From a virus: a stretch of DNA of 40,603 bases. Under the pieces are notes generated by a model that made no database searches, was not told where the DNA came from, and saw nothing but the letters and a program-made list of their open reading frames with translations. The stretch is from IMG/VR virus record IMGVR_UViG_3300042884_000935, positions 1-40,603 of that record; one strand, 5' to 3'. The position numbers and the translations under genes are program-made. Shown piece by piece: positions 955-6,312 of the stretch; the stretch's first letter is position 1, and every line of letters starts with the position of its first letter.

Positions 955-2106
955 TCAGCCCGGAATTAGCCACGCCGCCCAAGCCTCAAGCATGGCGCGG
1001 CGCAACGGCAGATGCTGGGCACGGTTATAGGCTGATTTCACTTTGTTCTCTGGTGCGTGCGAGAGTTGAAGTTCCACGGCATCGGACAAGTACCCGGACT
1101 CATGCGCCCATGTGCTTGCCACGGTCCTGAATCCATGCCCGGTATGCCGCCCCTTGTAGCCCATGCGCGCAATCAGAGCCAACACCGCATTCTCTGAAAT
1201 CGGCCTGTCGGGTCGATGGTCTGCCGGAAACACGTACTCTGACCGGCCAGCGCGCGGCTTGAGGATGGCGAGCAGTTCCTGCGCCTTGGTGGACAGCGGT
1301 ACAACATGATCCCGGCGCCGCTTCATTTTCCCGGCTGGGATGATCCATGTATCGCCCTGAATCTCTGCCCAGCACATGAACCTGAGTTCATTGGTGCGGA
1401 CCCAGGTCAAGGCCAGCAGCTTGAGCGCCAGGACAGATTGAAGTTCACCCTCTGCCGCCAGTCGCTCCATGAACGCCGGAATCTCTCGAGGCTCGAGCGC
1501 GGCAAAGTGTTCTTTCTTCTGCTTGCCAAATGCTCGAGCTGGTTTGATGGCTCGAGGCGGGTTGTCCGTGGCTTCGCCTTGCTCGAGCGCCCAATCCCAA
1601 ACCTGCGCAAGCCACATCCGCACCTTTCGGACGTAATCATGCTTTCCCTTCGCGTCCAGAATGTTCAAAGCCTCGAGAACATCCGCTCGAGATATGTCCC
1701 GGATTGCTCGAGAACCAAGAACCGGCTTCACATGCATCTCATAGGCGCGTCGCTCATTCTCGAGGTAGGACGGCGACAGGTCTTTTCTGCCTGACCAGTA
1801 GGCCTCGTGGGCATCATCCAAGGTCCGGCCTGCTTTGCGAGCCTTCTGCGCGGCTTTCGGGTCTTGCCCGTCTCTCAGTACCGCCTTCACCTTGTCACGC
1901 TTCTGGCGGGCTTCTGCAAGGCTTACCGCAGGGTAAGGCCCGATCACCAGGGTCTGAGCTTTGCCATCGACCCGGTACGTCAGACGCCAGACCTTGGCGC
2001 CGGTGGGCGACACGAAGAGAAACATCCCTCCACCATCGAACAGCTTGAGAGGCTTGCCAGCCTTCGCGCTCTTGCATTTCGCGTCCGTCAACACATTGGT
2101 TGCCAT
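955..2106 (-). CDS. int: P4-type tyrosine integrase
   Basis: 383 residues, the usual length for the P4/DUF4102 family. The N-terminal arm-binding domain (about 1-85) includes KLFDGGGMFLFV and GPYPAVSLAEARQKR. A SAM-like core-binding domain (about 95-185) and the catalytic domain follow. Catalytic residues visible are R237 in TWVRTNEL, the lysine region GKMKRRRDHVVPL, H324 and R327 in HGFR, H350 in LSH and the nucleophile Y360 in SAYNRA, so it appears intact. It should catalyse site-specific integration and excision between attP and attB. Five GATGCCTACA repeats lie upstream of its start and are probably its arm sites. The gene is convergent with the AlpA-like gene. Confidence 0.95.
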   Translation of the reverse strand: MATNVLTDAKCKSAKAGKPLKLFDGGGMFLFVSPTGAKVWRLTYRVDGKAQTLVIGPYPAVSLAEARQKRDKVKAVLRDGQDPKAAQKARKAGRTLDDAHEAYWSGRKDLSPSYLENERRAYEMHVKPVLGSRAIRDISRADVLEALNILDAKGKHDYVRKVRMWLAQVWDWALEQGEATDNPPRAIKPARAFGKQKKEHFAALEPREIPAFMERLAAEGELQSVLALKLLALTWVRTNELRFMCWAEIQGDTWIIPAGKMKRRRDHVVPLSTKAQELLAILKPRAGRSEYVFPADHRPDRPISENAVLALIARMGYKGRHTGHGFRTVASTWAHESGYLSDAVELQLSHAPENKVKSAYNRAQHLPLRRAMLEAWAAWLIPG

Positions 2107-2350: not shown

Positions 2351-2372
2351 GATGCCTACAAGGATGCCTACA
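2351..2372 (+). repeat. Integrase arm-site pair, middle
   Basis: Two perfect GATGCCTACA copies at 2351-2360 and 2363-2372 (12-bp period) in the same orientation as those at 2107 and 2915. The second overlaps the 3' end of the HNH gene by a few bases. They are probably integrase arm sites on one side of the recombination core. Confidence 0.6.
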
Positions 2373-2850
2373 AAGTACATCCCTCATGCAGGCGACGTTT
2401 CGCTGCTAAATACACCTCATGCGCCTCCTCCGGCGTCTTGAATCGCCCCAGAGTGCGGTTTTTGCCGTTGTGCCGAATCGATGCGCGGTAGCGGTTGCTC
2501 TTCTTTTCCAGATCAACACCAAGGAAGCCCGTCTTGTTCGTCTTGAACGGCCTGTGAATGTTTTGGTTGTTGGCCTGCCTGGGCACGTCTCGCAGGTTAG
2601 CTATGCGGTCATCCCTGCGGTCGCCGTTGATGTGGTCAATGTGGTTCTTGGGCCAAGTGCCATGCACGTAAAACCACGCGAGGCGCGCAGCCCGATATGC
2701 CCTCCCGCAAATACTCACATACCAATAGCCGTGGCGCTCTACGCCTATGGGCTTGCCAAGGTGGCGCGTGCTAACGCTTGAAAAGATGCCCGTTTCTGGA
2801 TCGTAGCGAACGAAGCCAAAAAGCTGTTTCTGTGTAAAGTCGTTGGTCAT
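2368..2850 (-). CDS. HNH endonuclease with C-terminal AP2 DNA-binding domain
   Basis: 160 residues from MTNDFTQKQL. An N-terminal region (about 5-60) precedes the HNH motif around HIDHINGDRRDDRIANLR (70-87), which has the expected paired histidine/aspartate and two asparagines. Residues 107-157, including KTGFLGVD, RYRASIRHNGKNRTLGRF and EEAHEVYLAAKR, match the AP2 fold found in phage HNH homing endonucleases. It should nick or cut double-stranded DNA and is probably free-standing and selfish. The ATG at 2850 lacks a Shine-Dalgarno site but sits 7 nt from a near-consensus -10, so the mRNA may be leaderless. An upstream TTG start would overlap the promoter. The gene lies between integrase arm repeats, an unusual position. 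Confidence 0.88.
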   Translation of the reverse strand: MTNDFTQKQLFGFVRYDPETGIFSSVSTRHLGKPIGVERHGYWYVSICGRAYRAARLAWFYVHGTWPKNHIDHINGDRRDDRIANLRDVPRQANNQNIHRPFKTNKTGFLGVDLEKKSNRYRASIRHNGKNRTLGRFKTPEEAHEVYLAAKRRLHEGCTL

Positions 2851-2852
2851 GT

Positions 2853-2871
2853 GGCGGATTTTATGTCCGCC
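2853..2871. promoter_or_regulatory. 6-7-6 palindrome over the HNH -10 element
   Basis: GGCGGA (2853-2858), 7 bases, then TCCGCC (2866-2871). It overlaps the -10 of the HNH promoter, as an operator would. The 6-7-6 geometry, between arm-type repeats on both sides, also resembles a tyrosine recombinase core with a 7-bp spacer. I cannot choose between the two from sequence alone. Confidence 0.4.
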
Positions 2872-2886
2872 TAACACGCCTGTCAA
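2858..2886 (-). promoter_or_regulatory. Near-consensus sigma70 promoter for the HNH gene
   Basis: On the minus strand TTGACA (2886-2881), a 17-bp spacer and TAAAAT (2863-2858) match 11 of 12 consensus bases. The ATG of the HNH gene begins 7 bases after the -10, so transcription should start at or within a base or two of the start codon. Confidence 0.75.
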
Positions 2887-2914
2887 ATCAACGACTTACG
2901 CAACTTTCTATCTA

Positions 2915-2937
2915 GATGCCTACACACGATGCCTACA
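2915..2937 (+). repeat. Integrase arm-site pair, right
   Basis: Two perfect GATGCCTACA copies at 2915-2924 and 2928-2937 (13-bp period), same orientation as the other copies. With the pair at 2351-2372 they bracket the HNH gene and its promoter, so the attP core, if here, lies between them. Confidence 0.6.
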
Positions 2938-2945
2938 CTTTCAGG

Positions 2946-2971
2946 CAAAAGAAAACCCGCCGAAGCGGGTT
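2946..2971 (-). terminator. Leftward intrinsic terminator after the structured non-coding block
   Basis: A 7-bp stem, AACCCGC (2954-2960) and GCGGGTT (2965-2971), has a 4-base loop. On the minus strand it is followed by TTTTCTTTTG. On the plus strand no T tract follows. It therefore ends a transcript coming leftward from the region 2979-3440, where no convincing gene exists. Confidence 0.75.
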
Positions 2972-2978
2972 CCCTGGT

Positions 2979-3431
2979 CAGCTTCTGGCGCTGTGCCTTG
3001 CCACTGTAGCCATCCAACGGGGTGCAGGCCCTCGGCTACTGATACTTCCTGCACAGCAATGAAAACCGCAACGTAGCAAGCCAGAGGCTGCGGGCGTGTT
3101 GTTGATGGCGGCCGGGGGACCCCAACCCTACTGCGCCCCATCGGTGCCATTGCGCGACGGCATTCGGCAGCACAGCTTGACCATCAACTCAGCGGCGGGT
3201 TGCGTTCGCGTTAGAAGTCGTGCCTAGCGGGGACCGCCCTCTCGCCTTGAACTGGACCGACCGCCTCCGGTGTCCCGCTTGCGCCATGCGCCGCTGAGTT
3301 GATGATTCCCGCTTCTTTCCCGGGATGGTCAGGACGCTGAACCCTGCGCCAGGGCAAGCGCAAGTGTACCGACGCATCAAAGCTGGAGCACTACCGTTCG
3401 TCGGGTGACCCTTGACCTTGTGACGCGTCAC
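2979..3431. ncRNA. Candidate large structured RNA (or structured DNA element)
   Basis: No convincing gene here; small open frames lack ribosome sites. Several long-range helices can form. 2979-2989 pairs with 3080-3090 (11 bp, one wobble on plus or A-C on minus), stacked on 2990-2996 with 3051-3057 (7 bp). 3006-3011 pairs with 3034-3039. An alternative pseudoknot joins 3022-3028 to 3048-3054 (7 bp). A perfect 16-bp stem joins 3182-3197 to 3289-3304, closing AGCGGG/CCCGCT (3226-3231/3274-3279) and ACCG/CGGT (3233-3236/3268-3271). Another stem is 3369-3374 with 3399-3404. 3101-3108 can compete for 3181-3188. The leftward terminator at 2946-2971 favours a minus-strand transcript, but I found no strong minus-strand promoter. 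I do not recognise an RNA family; it is not tmRNA-like or RNase P-like. Confidence 0.45.
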
Positions 3432-3441
3432 GGACTACATT
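3412..3441 (+). promoter_or_regulatory. Rightward sigma70-type promoter of the accessory cassette
   Basis: TTGACC (3412-3417), an 18-bp spacer, then TACATT (3436-3441), 34 bp before the first gene of the 3475-5637 cassette. The 12-bp palindrome GTGACGCGTCAC lies entirely in the spacer, which suggests repression by a dimeric regulator. Confidence 0.6.
3420..3431. promoter_or_regulatory. Palindromic operator candidate GTGACGCGTCAC
   Basis: A perfect 12-bp palindrome between the -35 and -10 of the promoter at 3412-3441. It does not match the CTAC-N4-GTAG operators of the immunity region, so a different regulator (phage or host) would act here. I saw no second perfect copy in the window by eye. 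Confidence 0.5.
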
Positions 3442-3474
3442 ACATCCATCGCAACACACATCGGAGCAAACAAA

Positions 3475-3687
3475 ATGAACATCGCAGCAGCAAACGTCAT
3501 CATCAACAAAAGCGCCGCCAATGTTGCAGGCTGGATCAATGACGAGGTGTTCTACACGGTCGCTGAAAACGGCACGGTTGCGGTCTGGTTCTCTGATGAC
3601 GAAGAAGCAATTCAACTTGGCGCACGCCACCCTGGCACCAGCGGCAAGTCTGCCGCCACCATCGCCAACGACATCTACGGAGCCTAA
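3475..3687 (+). CDS. Small hypothetical protein, first gene of accessory cassette
   Basis: 70 residues, MNIAAANVIINKSAANVAGW onward, with a GGAG ribosome site 10 bases before the ATG. The sequence alternates small hydrophobic and acidic residues (WFSDDEEAIQLG) without Cys/His metal sites or a membrane segment. It is the first gene after the operator-controlled promoter, and the next gene follows after one base. Function unknown. Confidence 0.65.
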   Translation: MNIAAANVIINKSAANVAGWINDEVFYTVAENGTVAVWFSDDEEAIQLGARHPGTSGKSAATIANDIYGA

Positions 3688-3688
3688 T

Positions 3689-3985
3689 ATGGACGTGAAG
3701 CACTGCGAAGCTGGCCCGGATCACTGCCAGCAATGCGCGTCAGAACACAAAGAGCGTTCAGCCGATGATCTTGTGCACGCGCTTCGTCTCTTTGATATGA
3801 ATTTCCTGCTTGTCGGAAACATTCCTGTTGGAGAGTTTGTTCTGGCCATCCGCCGACTTCAAATCGAGTGCGACAGGCTGAATGACCTGCTTTCAGAAAT
3901 TGGCGACATGGCCCACGACGCCAGCACCGGGCCAGCCGTTCCCGATGTGCTTTGGGAAATCCGTTCAAAGGCTTACCAGCAATGA
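3689..3985 (+). CDS. Hypothetical protein, accessory cassette
   Basis: 98 residues starting MDVKHCEAGPDHCQQC. The N-terminus has a Cys/His pattern (C6, H12, C13, C16, H20) that might bind a metal. The middle is amphipathic helix (LAIRRLQIECDRLNDLLSEI), possibly a short coiled coil. The ATG at 3689 follows the previous stop by one base. The stop overlaps the next start (ATGA). Function unknown. Confidence 0.6.
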   Translation: MDVKHCEAGPDHCQQCASEHKERSADDLVHALRLFDMNFLLVGNIPVGEFVLAIRRLQIECDRLNDLLSEIGDMAHDASTGPAVPDVLWEIRSKAYQQ

Positions 3986-4309: not shown

Positions 4310-4619
4310 GGAGCTACTTGAGAAAGCGGCTAAGGCTGCTGGGCTTGTCAATGCCTCGTATTTTGCAGGTACTGATAAGTACAAAGAAGGCGTTTGGTTT
4401 GATGACGAGCATGGGCGGTCATGCTTCAATCCTCTAACCGACGATGGAGACGCGCTGCGGCTTGCGGTGAAGCTGCATCTTGAGCTTGATGCGTCAACCG
4501 ATCCTATTTGCGCCGGGGACGGGGTTATCGGAGTGCGCGAACCTTGCGGAACAGACCGATACGCCGCCACCCGCCTAGCTATCGTCCGCGCTGCTGCCGC
4601 TATCGGAGAATCGAAATGA
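4299..4619 (+). CDS. Hypothetical protein, accessory cassette
   Basis: 106 residues, beginning MDDRELLEKAAKAAGLV, an opening seen in many small phage proteins of unknown role. The second half contains GDALRLAVKLHLELD and ends RLAIVRAAAAIGESK. The start has GGAG upstream and overlaps the previous gene. The stop overlaps the next ATG (ATGA). The conserved style suggests a modular early-gene family, but the role is unknown. Confidence 0.65.
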   Translation: MDDRELLEKAAKAAGLVNASYFAGTDKYKEGVWFDDEHGRSCFNPLTDDGDALRLAVKLHLELDASTDPICAGDGVIGVREPCGTDRYAATRLAIVRAAAAIGESK

Positions 4620-5322: not shown

Positions 5323-5637
5323 ATGGAAACTCTTGTTTTGACCGGCGACAACAACACGCCAGCCATGCCGATGATCGAGGCCCAGGTTAACCACCTTCGG
5401 CGTCTTCTGGCTTGGATGCGCTGCGAATGGACCTTGGACGAAGACATGCAGCGCGGCTATCTGAGTGGTGCCTCGGAGTGCGTCCGGCTTGGCATCGCAA
5501 CAGAGGAACGGGCTAGCGAAATCGTCCAGCAGAAAGCCGAGCAGATCAACCAGTGTCCGGCCTACGTTCGGCAGGCAGTGAAGATGCTGACCAAGGCCCT
5601 GCGCGATCATGAGCGGTCATCGGGGATCGTTGGATAG
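5323..5637 (+). CDS. Hypothetical protein, last gene of accessory cassette
   Basis: 104 residues, METLVLTGDNNTPAMPMIEA onward, predicted helical (NHLRRLLAWMRCEWTLDEDM). It starts one base after the previous stop. Its own stop codon lies inside the perfect hairpin at 5636-5658, so transcription or mRNA ends are probably processed there. No recognised domain. Confidence 0.65.
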   Translation: METLVLTGDNNTPAMPMIEAQVNHLRRLLAWMRCEWTLDEDMQRGYLSGASECVRLGIATEERASEIVQQKAEQINQCPAYVRQAVKMLTKALRDHERSSGIVG

Positions 5638-5658
5638 AAGTGAGATTTTCTCACTTCT
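5636..5658. repeat. Perfect 10-bp hairpin AGAAGTGAGA-TTT-TCTCACTTCT
   Basis: The stem 5636-5645/5649-5658 is perfect with a 3-base loop and includes the stop codon of the preceding gene. A close relative lies at 40537-40559. Its loop-side sequence GAGATTTTC is identical, and the two stem changes at positions 6 and 18 compensate each other. No T tract follows on the plus strand, so it may be an mRNA 3'-end stabiliser or protein site rather than a classical terminator. Confidence 0.6.
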
Positions 5659-5661
5659 AAG

Positions 5662-5692
5662 TAAAAAACCCGCTGATTTTTAGGCCAGCGGG
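5662..5692 (-). terminator. Intrinsic terminator of the leftward late operon
   Basis: The stem CCCGCTG (5669-5675) with CAGCGGG (5686-5692) is followed on the minus strand by TTTTTTAC. It lies downstream of the lipoprotein gene, the last gene of the leftward late operon, and faces the rightward cassette. Confidence 0.75.
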
Positions 5693-5738
5693 CAAAGTGC
5701 GGCAACGCACAGGAGACAACGGCAACGTTGTATAGTGT

Positions 5739-5873
5739 GGTTGTAGGTGGTGAATGCGTAGGCTGATACGCAAGGCGGAGACTCCGGCTATCCGGCCAAT
5801 GGTGCTCTATATCGGTTCGACTCCGACAGCCTAGGATGAAGCCGGGGATCAGCACCGGCCACCACCTACAACC
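5739..5873. ncRNA. Candidate structured RNA with tRNA-like T-arm
   Basis: A 14-bp perfect stem, 5739-5752 with 5860-5873, closes a 107-base interior. Inner hairpins are GCGTA/TACGC (5756-5760/5767-5771), CCGG/CCGG (5784-5787/5792-5795), TCGG-TTCGACT-CCGA (5812-5826) and GCCGG/CCGGC (5841-5845/5855-5859). The TTCGACT loop and its distance to TAGGCT/AGCCTA (5759-5764/5828-5833) copy a tRNA T-arm and acceptor stem. No proper anticodon arm is visible, and the TAGGCT pairing competes with the GCGTA hairpin. T-loop features read on the plus strand. A minus-strand copy would form the late mRNA 3' end. Not a functional tRNA. Confidence 0.45.
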
Positions 5874-5877
5874 TTAC

Positions 5878-6312
5878 TTAAGGCGCAGGCTCGGCAGGAA
5901 CCACGAACGGTTCAACAATGACAGGCGGCTTGCTTGCGGCTTCGATGCCTTGGCCTGCAATGCCGCCCAGCGTGCCCATCGTCAAGCCGTACTGCTGCAC
6001 TTCCGCGTCAATCTGTTTCATGGAAATCGCGGCGTTTCGGTTGATGCCGTAGACGTTGGTCAAGCTGGGAATCAGGATCGATGCCCAGGCCATCGCCTTA
6101 TCTTGAGGCACAGCGATAGAACCGGCTGCAGACTTGCGAAGCGCCAGCGCCATGATCGCGCCCTGGTTGCCGGTCGCAGCAGCAGCGGCCAGCGCCATGA
6201 CTGCATTGTTGTCGGCTTCGATGGCCTTGCCTTGGACCTCGTAATACTTGCTCATGTCAGTCGCGCAGCCGGTCAGGAATACGGTCAGCACAAGGGCGAG
6301 AATGGTTTTCAT
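5878..6312 (-). CDS. Small lipoprotein, last gene of the late/lysis operon
   Basis: 144 residues with a lipoprotein signal peptide, MKTILALVLTVFLTGCA, lipobox LTGC with lipidated Cys16. The mature part is Ala-rich (AVMALAAAAATGNQGAIMAL), then has NVYGINRNAAISMKQIDAEV. I chose the ATG at 6312 because the signal peptide begins there and it overlaps the Rz stop (ATGA). Position after Rz/Rz1 suggests an outer-membrane or periplasmic lysis accessory or lysogenic-conversion lipoprotein; the role is not known. Confidence 0.75.
   Translation of the reverse strand: MKTILALVLTVFLTGCATDMSKYYEVQGKAIEADNNAVMALAAAAATGNQGAIMALALRKSAAGSIAVPQDKAMAWASILIPSLTNVYGINRNAAISMKQIDAEVQQYGLTMGTLGGIAGQGIEAASKPPVIVEPFVVPAEPAP

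Follow-up and report, generated by a model that had tools for sequence, protein, structure and literature searches.

The known RNAs nearest to the locus analyzed here are STnc100 (RF02076) and PasD, enterobacterial prophage small RNAs that carry an intrinsic terminator at their 3' end and whose copies are found in lambdoid prophages and tRNA clusters. PasD and STnc100 have a common fold with different seed regions and targets (PMC13192938), and a Northern blot showed one STnc100 copy (STnc100_4) in EHEC (PMC5331693). The antiterminator put RNA of HK022, in turn, is about 70 nt long and consists of two stem-loops that sit near early promoters or directly downstream of them (PMC9378689). HEARO, GOLLD, and ROOL are large structured noncoding RNAs in or near phage genes, with HNH genes nearby.

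We examined a 495-nt block (2946-3440) in a 40.6-kb viral record (IMGVR_UViG_3300042884_000935), the whole of which is referred to as the window. Our preferred reading, which we hold with a probability of about 0.5, is that the block encodes a leftward noncoding RNA, which may act like the STnc100/PasD-type small RNAs. The block resembles these RNAs in having an intrinsic terminator where the 3' end of a phage noncoding RNA would lie (2946-2975, minus strand). It differs from STnc100 in that GGUCAA replaces GGUGAAU, though P1, P2, and P3 come in the same order, and from both RNAs in its additional type A stem and other modules, its position adjoining an integrase, and its different phage group. 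Type A and type B are RNA elements defined in the present analysis and represented by models R2 and R1, respectively. Type B is like STnc100 and PasD in its closing stem with GGUGAAU, its P2, its variable insert, and a P3 adjoining the closing stem.

The block is also like arrays of type A and type B elements in its order (A, B, terminator, as in its relative L020), in the bases shared between adjoining stems, and in a hairpin with a GGAAAG loop, but its stem sequence and junction diverge from the canonical elements and are not scored by the models. Like put, it would form a structured nascent RNA in a temperate phage, although its architecture is a long stem and a three-way junction before a terminator rather than two stem-loops. 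It is comparable to HEARO, GOLLD, and ROOL as a structured RNA candidate near an HNH gene, and unlike them in matching no Rfam family, in having relatives without HNH, and in being composed of small repeated domain types. The initial annotation had suggested that this could be a new large phage RNA, which comes near the mark: the block looks like a structured RNA that is read leftward, ends at a terminator, has support from comparison, and matches no Rfam family at gathering threshold. It appears to be a modular array, with parts (type A and type B) that recur, mostly without annotation, in many Proteobacteria phages, rather than a single new class.

Setting and structure of the block

The block lies between an integrase and HNH gene on its left and a rightward operon on its right. 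The features of the window considered here are as follows.

955-2106, minus strand: integrase gene, left of the block
2368-2886, minus strand: HNH gene, left of the block
2946-2975, minus strand: intrinsic terminator, an 11-bp hairpin (2950-2975) with a T-rich tail, assigned from sequence, fold, and annotated phage terminators
2976-3098, minus strand: 3' module holding a previously suggested bipartite pairing and pseudoknot; about 98% identical in relative L037 and absent from relative L038
3101-3188, minus strand: type B-like three-way junction, from a predicted fold shared by the window and L037
3182-3304, minus strand: type A-like stem-loop with a perfect 16-bp closing stem (3289-3304 with 3182-3197), from fold, simulation, and relatives
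3227-3237, minus strand: inner hairpin with two compensatory pair changes in the alignment of the window with L038
3308-3324, minus strand: GGAAAG-loop hairpin CCCG-GGAAAGAAG-CGGG just before the stem, identical in L038
3369-3404, minus strand: 5' module with CCGACG/CGTCGG arms, which are identical in the window, L037, and L038
3412-3441, plus strand: putative sigma-70-like promoter, divergent from the block RNA and serving the rightward operon; its operator is GTGACGCGTCAC at 3420-3431, from sequence and a scan
from 3475, plus strand: rightward operon of small genes, right of the block
5739-5873, plus strand: canonical type B element with a 14-bp closing stem, scoring 87.3 bits with R1 as a training member

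In agreement with the initial annotation, no gene fits the block. Its longest open reading frame (3189-3431, minus strand) is interrupted in L038 by a 2-base indel and by an in-frame stop (CAA to TAA at 3281). Third codon positions are not enriched in substitutions between the window and L038. A covariance search of the block against Rfam matched no family at gathering threshold. STnc100 in particular (gathering threshold 47 bits) had no match at that threshold in the window, and none in 2880-3500 up to an E-value of 10. Weak Rfam matches at the terminator end (rsmX, ErsA, istR, and others, with E-values of 0.07 and above) were judged to be chance matches driven by the terminator.

Compared with shuffles, the whole block gained only a modest amount of stability, and the two strands gave similar values (z = -1.9 and z = -1.75), so it is homology rather than folding energy that picks the strand. 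No clear leftward promoter was found for the block RNA. The promoter and operator of the rightward operon are conserved in L037 and similar in L038, and the fold of 3320-3424, around the 5' module, was no better than that of shuffles. At the other end, the terminator would act leftward only, as had been claimed, and its sequence matches features annotated as terminators in Pseudomonas phage D3 and Klebsiella phages. A simple terminator scan did not list it, probably since the stem search extends into the T tract. Repeats of GATGCCTACA at 2104-2150, 2345-2372, and 2905-2937 are probable integrase arm sites; the HNH gene sits between two groups of these repeats, as if inserted, and L037 has kept the right-hand group without integrase or HNH.

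The 16-bp stem described in the initial annotation is exact and is the unique perfect inverted repeat of its size in the window. Repeats of at least 16 bp (loop up to 150) numbered one in 40.6 kb and none in 60 simulated windows, and simulation gave an expectation of 0.05 per window even at a length of at least 14 bp. On the minus strand, the fold of 3176-3312 beat 200 of 200 shuffles (z = -3.2), and the same stem is present in L038 and L020. Changes between the window and L038 cluster inside the hairpin at 3227-3237, where the plus-strand letters are GCGG-GGA-CCGC in the window and GCAT-TGG-ATGC in L038, amounting to two compensatory base pairs. Hairpins similar to that with the GGAAAG loop occur upstream of type A in L089, L090, L160, and L195. 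Other readings of the long inverted repeat were rejected: an integron attC site, there being no attC core at the stem base; a MITE-like mobile element, the flanks being conserved in L038; and an embedded tRNA, ARAGORN being negative.

The window and L037 are predicted to form the same three-way junction despite about 44% interior identity. It consists of P1 (3180-3188 with 3101-3109), J1/2 (CAA), P2, J2/3 (AG), and P3 (3110-3127), the last with 7 bp and a 4-nt loop and abutting P1. A 7-bp P3 at this position arose in 0.8% of shuffles. The adjacent 3' module does not bear out two earlier suggestions: complementarity is present both for the 18-base strand at 2979-2996 and for the 7-bp pseudoknot, but the predicted fold of 2975-3098 has no advantage over shuffled sequence (z = +0.52), since 130 of 200 shuffles matched or exceeded its stability. 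The sole homolog of this region is about 98% identical, too close to be informative on covariation.

Relatives and exchange of modules

The block's own sequence is common to only two other phages. Scans with 16-mers found real relatives only in L025/L038, L037/L079, and L020, and most other matches were chance matches inside genes. L038/L025 share 3177-3691 of the window, L037/L079 share 2912-3124 and 3357-3691, and in L020 the shared part is limited to the stem and a terminator. A candidate in L032 (86.8% identity over 38 nt) was rejected because its second arm is absent and the repeat is coding-like. No match to the block sequence turned up among 50,697 phages or among 72,556 plasmids, and a search of viral contigs for further window-like stems returned known loci only.

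Between the window and L037, sequence is swapped exactly from 3124 to 3357, with flanks that are 97-99% identical. A canonical type A element in L037 fills precisely the slot of the window's 16-bp stem: R2 built without L037 matched L037 4680-4828 on the minus strand at 57.3 bits (E = 5e-16, a rough value as model E-values came from a short calibration) versus 18 bits on the other strand. This held-out match implies that the stem in the window is an alternative form of type A and that the RNA strand is minus. In L020, a stem like that of the window is followed by a canonical type B (46.4 bits with R1) and then by a similar terminator. Neither model scored the block itself above threshold, with R2 giving no match anywhere in the window and R1 giving 4.9 bits (E = 0.23) on the minus strand at 3099-3190, which covers P1 only and is below threshold. 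Since the block is below threshold in R1, R2, and Rfam, its classification as a divergent relative comes from where it lies and from homology, and not from a score.

The exactness of the swap would also suit a role at the level of DNA, in which the inverted repeats are linkers at the borders of exchanged cassettes and have no function as RNA. Features annotated as 'boundary sequence' (bsq3 and bsq4) flank the R1 matches of phage CUS-3 on either side, consistent with such linkers. We regard this as very unlikely given the compensatory pairing, which includes loop-loop complementarity and G-U pairs, the strand asymmetry of the model scores, and the expression of the homologous STnc100 RNA (PMC5331693).

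Noncoding positions 3182-3404 are 94.2% identical between the window and L038, compared with 75.2% for the adjacent 70-aa gene at the DNA level. L038 is missing the 3' half of the block and the terminator at the corresponding place. This absence might be taken to mean that the block is a decaying remnant of an RNA array or tRNA-like gene that is no longer expressed, as might the lack of a match to the canonical models and of a tRNA in ARAGORN. However, the part that is retained is more conserved than the neighboring gene and includes compensatory change, and the stem and junction are intact, which makes decay an improbable account. As to the proposed link with HNH, both L037 and L038 keep the RNA sequence with neither HNH nor integrase adjacent to it, and the association looks incidental. 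L038 (967-1008) retains a 42-base match to the 3' end of the integrase, and L037 has a short remnant similar to that end at 4380-4430. Loss of the integrase from both implies either a swap of the temperate module or its repeated deletion.

At the level of sequence, comparison with these relatives shows the strand, the folds of the type A stem-loop and the type B-like junction, stronger conservation than in the neighboring gene, the lack of a protein, and the interchangeability of the modules.

Type A and type B elements in other phages

The 17-base core of type B was present in at least 120 viral stretches, and a 21-base version occurred in 11 genome records, comprising ten beta-/gammaproteobacteria and one Bradyrhizobium. 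The element is ordered as the closing stem P1, TGAAT, P2 (GCGTA and TRCGC around the loop GGCTGA), an insert of 27-209 nt, P3 (GCCGG and CCGGC around AGATCAGCA), and the second strand of P1. Five bases of the P2 and P3 loops were complementary in 50 of 50 aligned sequences. Covariation was strong in P1 and P3, with 84 double-change cells against 23 in shuffles and 7-46 in slid controls. Because an exact 17-mer was used to collect the type B sequences, the identity of TGAAT, P2, and the P2 loop is inflated, and the case for covariation rests on P1 and P3.

Type A is often directly upstream of type B, with ACGCATGNGGATTG and CAGTCCNCAGYCGT around a variable insert, and showed 28 double-change cells against 6.6 in shuffles. 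Adjoining elements share bases, such that the 3' arm of type A is the 5' strand of the type B P1. The L020 element continues into GTGAATGCGTAGGCTGATGCGC, which is nearly the same as 5750-5771 of the window. Type A stems were of several sequence kinds (including those starting GCTCTTCGG and AACAAGTCTAGG), all long and near-perfect with differing inserts; such varied stems lie upstream of or near type B in L101, L177, L090, L104, L155, and L151, and R2 recognizes some of them.

The canonical type B of the window (5739-5873; R1 match at 5741-5871) contains GGUGAAU and has a fold z-score of -4.2. The rightward operon ends with this element, which has a TATAGT -10-like box just upstream and lies antisense to where the leftward structural operon ends. 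Rfam gave no STnc100 match in 5630-5900 up to an E-value of 5, leaving this element unrecognized. A leftward terminator-like hairpin (GCCCGCTGGCCTAAAAATCAGCGGGTTTTTTAC) at 5658-5690 on the minus strand would end the structural-gene transcript.

Although R1 contains no STnc100 sequence, with filters off it recovered three STnc100 copies in L150 (21.6, 19.0, and 11.6 bits) that coincide with their Rfam placements. From this recovery, type B and STnc100 look like one clan. In the same prophage tRNA cluster (L150 1507-3075), three STnc100 and a long-insert type B alternate with tRNA-Met, tRNA-Gly, and tRNA-Arg. When R1 was run across genomes class-wide, the stringency used was such that even its own positive genome went undetected, and the outcome carries no information on prevalence.

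Type B occurs in HK620 between pR'/qut and the holin gene (R1 80 bits; L207 1210-1309), between Q and S in CUS-3 (35 and 24 bits; L209 1010-1233), next to tRNA-Arg in the Klebsiella phage ZCKp20p (84 bits), among tRNAs in a gene-free region of 2 kb in the N4-like phage IME11, and in the Ackermannviridae phage Magnus. R1 did not match lambda, though the end of orf-64 matches the flank of an enterobacterial copy. A tRNA was near type B in 15 of 103 contexts, on the same strand in every case. The gene-free RNA arrays of IME11 and Magnus also hold tmRNA-like sequences (L206 903-1105 and L205 896-1058) with the frame ANDDVVLMAA followed by a stop; sub-threshold Rfam matches were to permuted and alpha tmRNA (33 and 21-25 bits), and ARAGORN was negative.

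T7 has intergenic processing sites, and the elements may similarly be cis-acting leaders or spacers within longer phage transcripts. Type A would then be a processing site (e.g., for RNase III), type B, as a stable structure at the 5' end, would protect the mRNA that follows or control it, and the leftward RNA of the window would be a processed leader or by-product. Where type B lacks an upstream type A, -10 boxes cluster 16-17 nt before TGAAT, as if the RNA began at P1. Moreover, a gene start with a Shine-Dalgarno sequence is found no more than 60 nt from 19 of 78 type B copies, versus 1 of 73 in the control, and the position of the HK620 element places it within the late transcript. On the other hand, terminators within 200 nt of type B were on the same strand in 18 of 78 cases and antisense in 6 of 78, the conserved loop sequences exceed the needs of a protective hairpin or cleavage site, and the RNA of the window would terminate short of HNH and integrase, and no gene follows its elements. 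These promoter, gene-start, and terminator statistics suggest that some type B copies are leaders and others terminated small RNAs. The block looks like the latter kind, and we consider the leader or spacer reading unlikely here, albeit worth retaining.

A proposed model for the block RNA

That the block is a leftward phage RNA gene is probable. Under the preferred reading, an STnc100/PasD-like small RNA would start near 3440 at a presumed promoter, run leftward, and end at the terminator. Its domains, each folding on its own, would follow one another as the 5' module, the GGAAAG-loop hairpin, the type A stem-loop, the type B-like junction, and the 3' module. A conserved scaffold with a U-rich terminator would carry a variable segment for base pairing to RNA targets, in the way proposed for STnc100/PasD. 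GTTGATG (3182-3188) could pair either upstream in the type A stem or downstream in P1 of type B, giving two mutually exclusive folds. Action in trans is possible but somewhat doubtful.

A broader and speculative idea, to which we assign little weight, is that types A and B are mobile scaffolds used by Proteobacteria phages to carry fast-changing inserts, both in gene-free arrays alongside tRNAs and tmRNA-like genes and in late leaders. The inserts would serve as guides or decoys, such as tRNA mimics directed against RNA-cleaving host defenses, and the block would be an array with a switch between exclusive stems.

The small RNA reading would turn an unannotated gap into an RNA gene tied to a family of structured RNAs in lambdoid, N4-like, Ackermannviridae, and Klebsiella phages. 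This family includes the late leader of HK620, and Rfam covers only its enterobacterial branch, STnc100. Phage annotations leave such loci empty or assign them dubious small ORFs. The R1 and R2 models make the role of prophage RNAs such as STnc100 testable across many phages.
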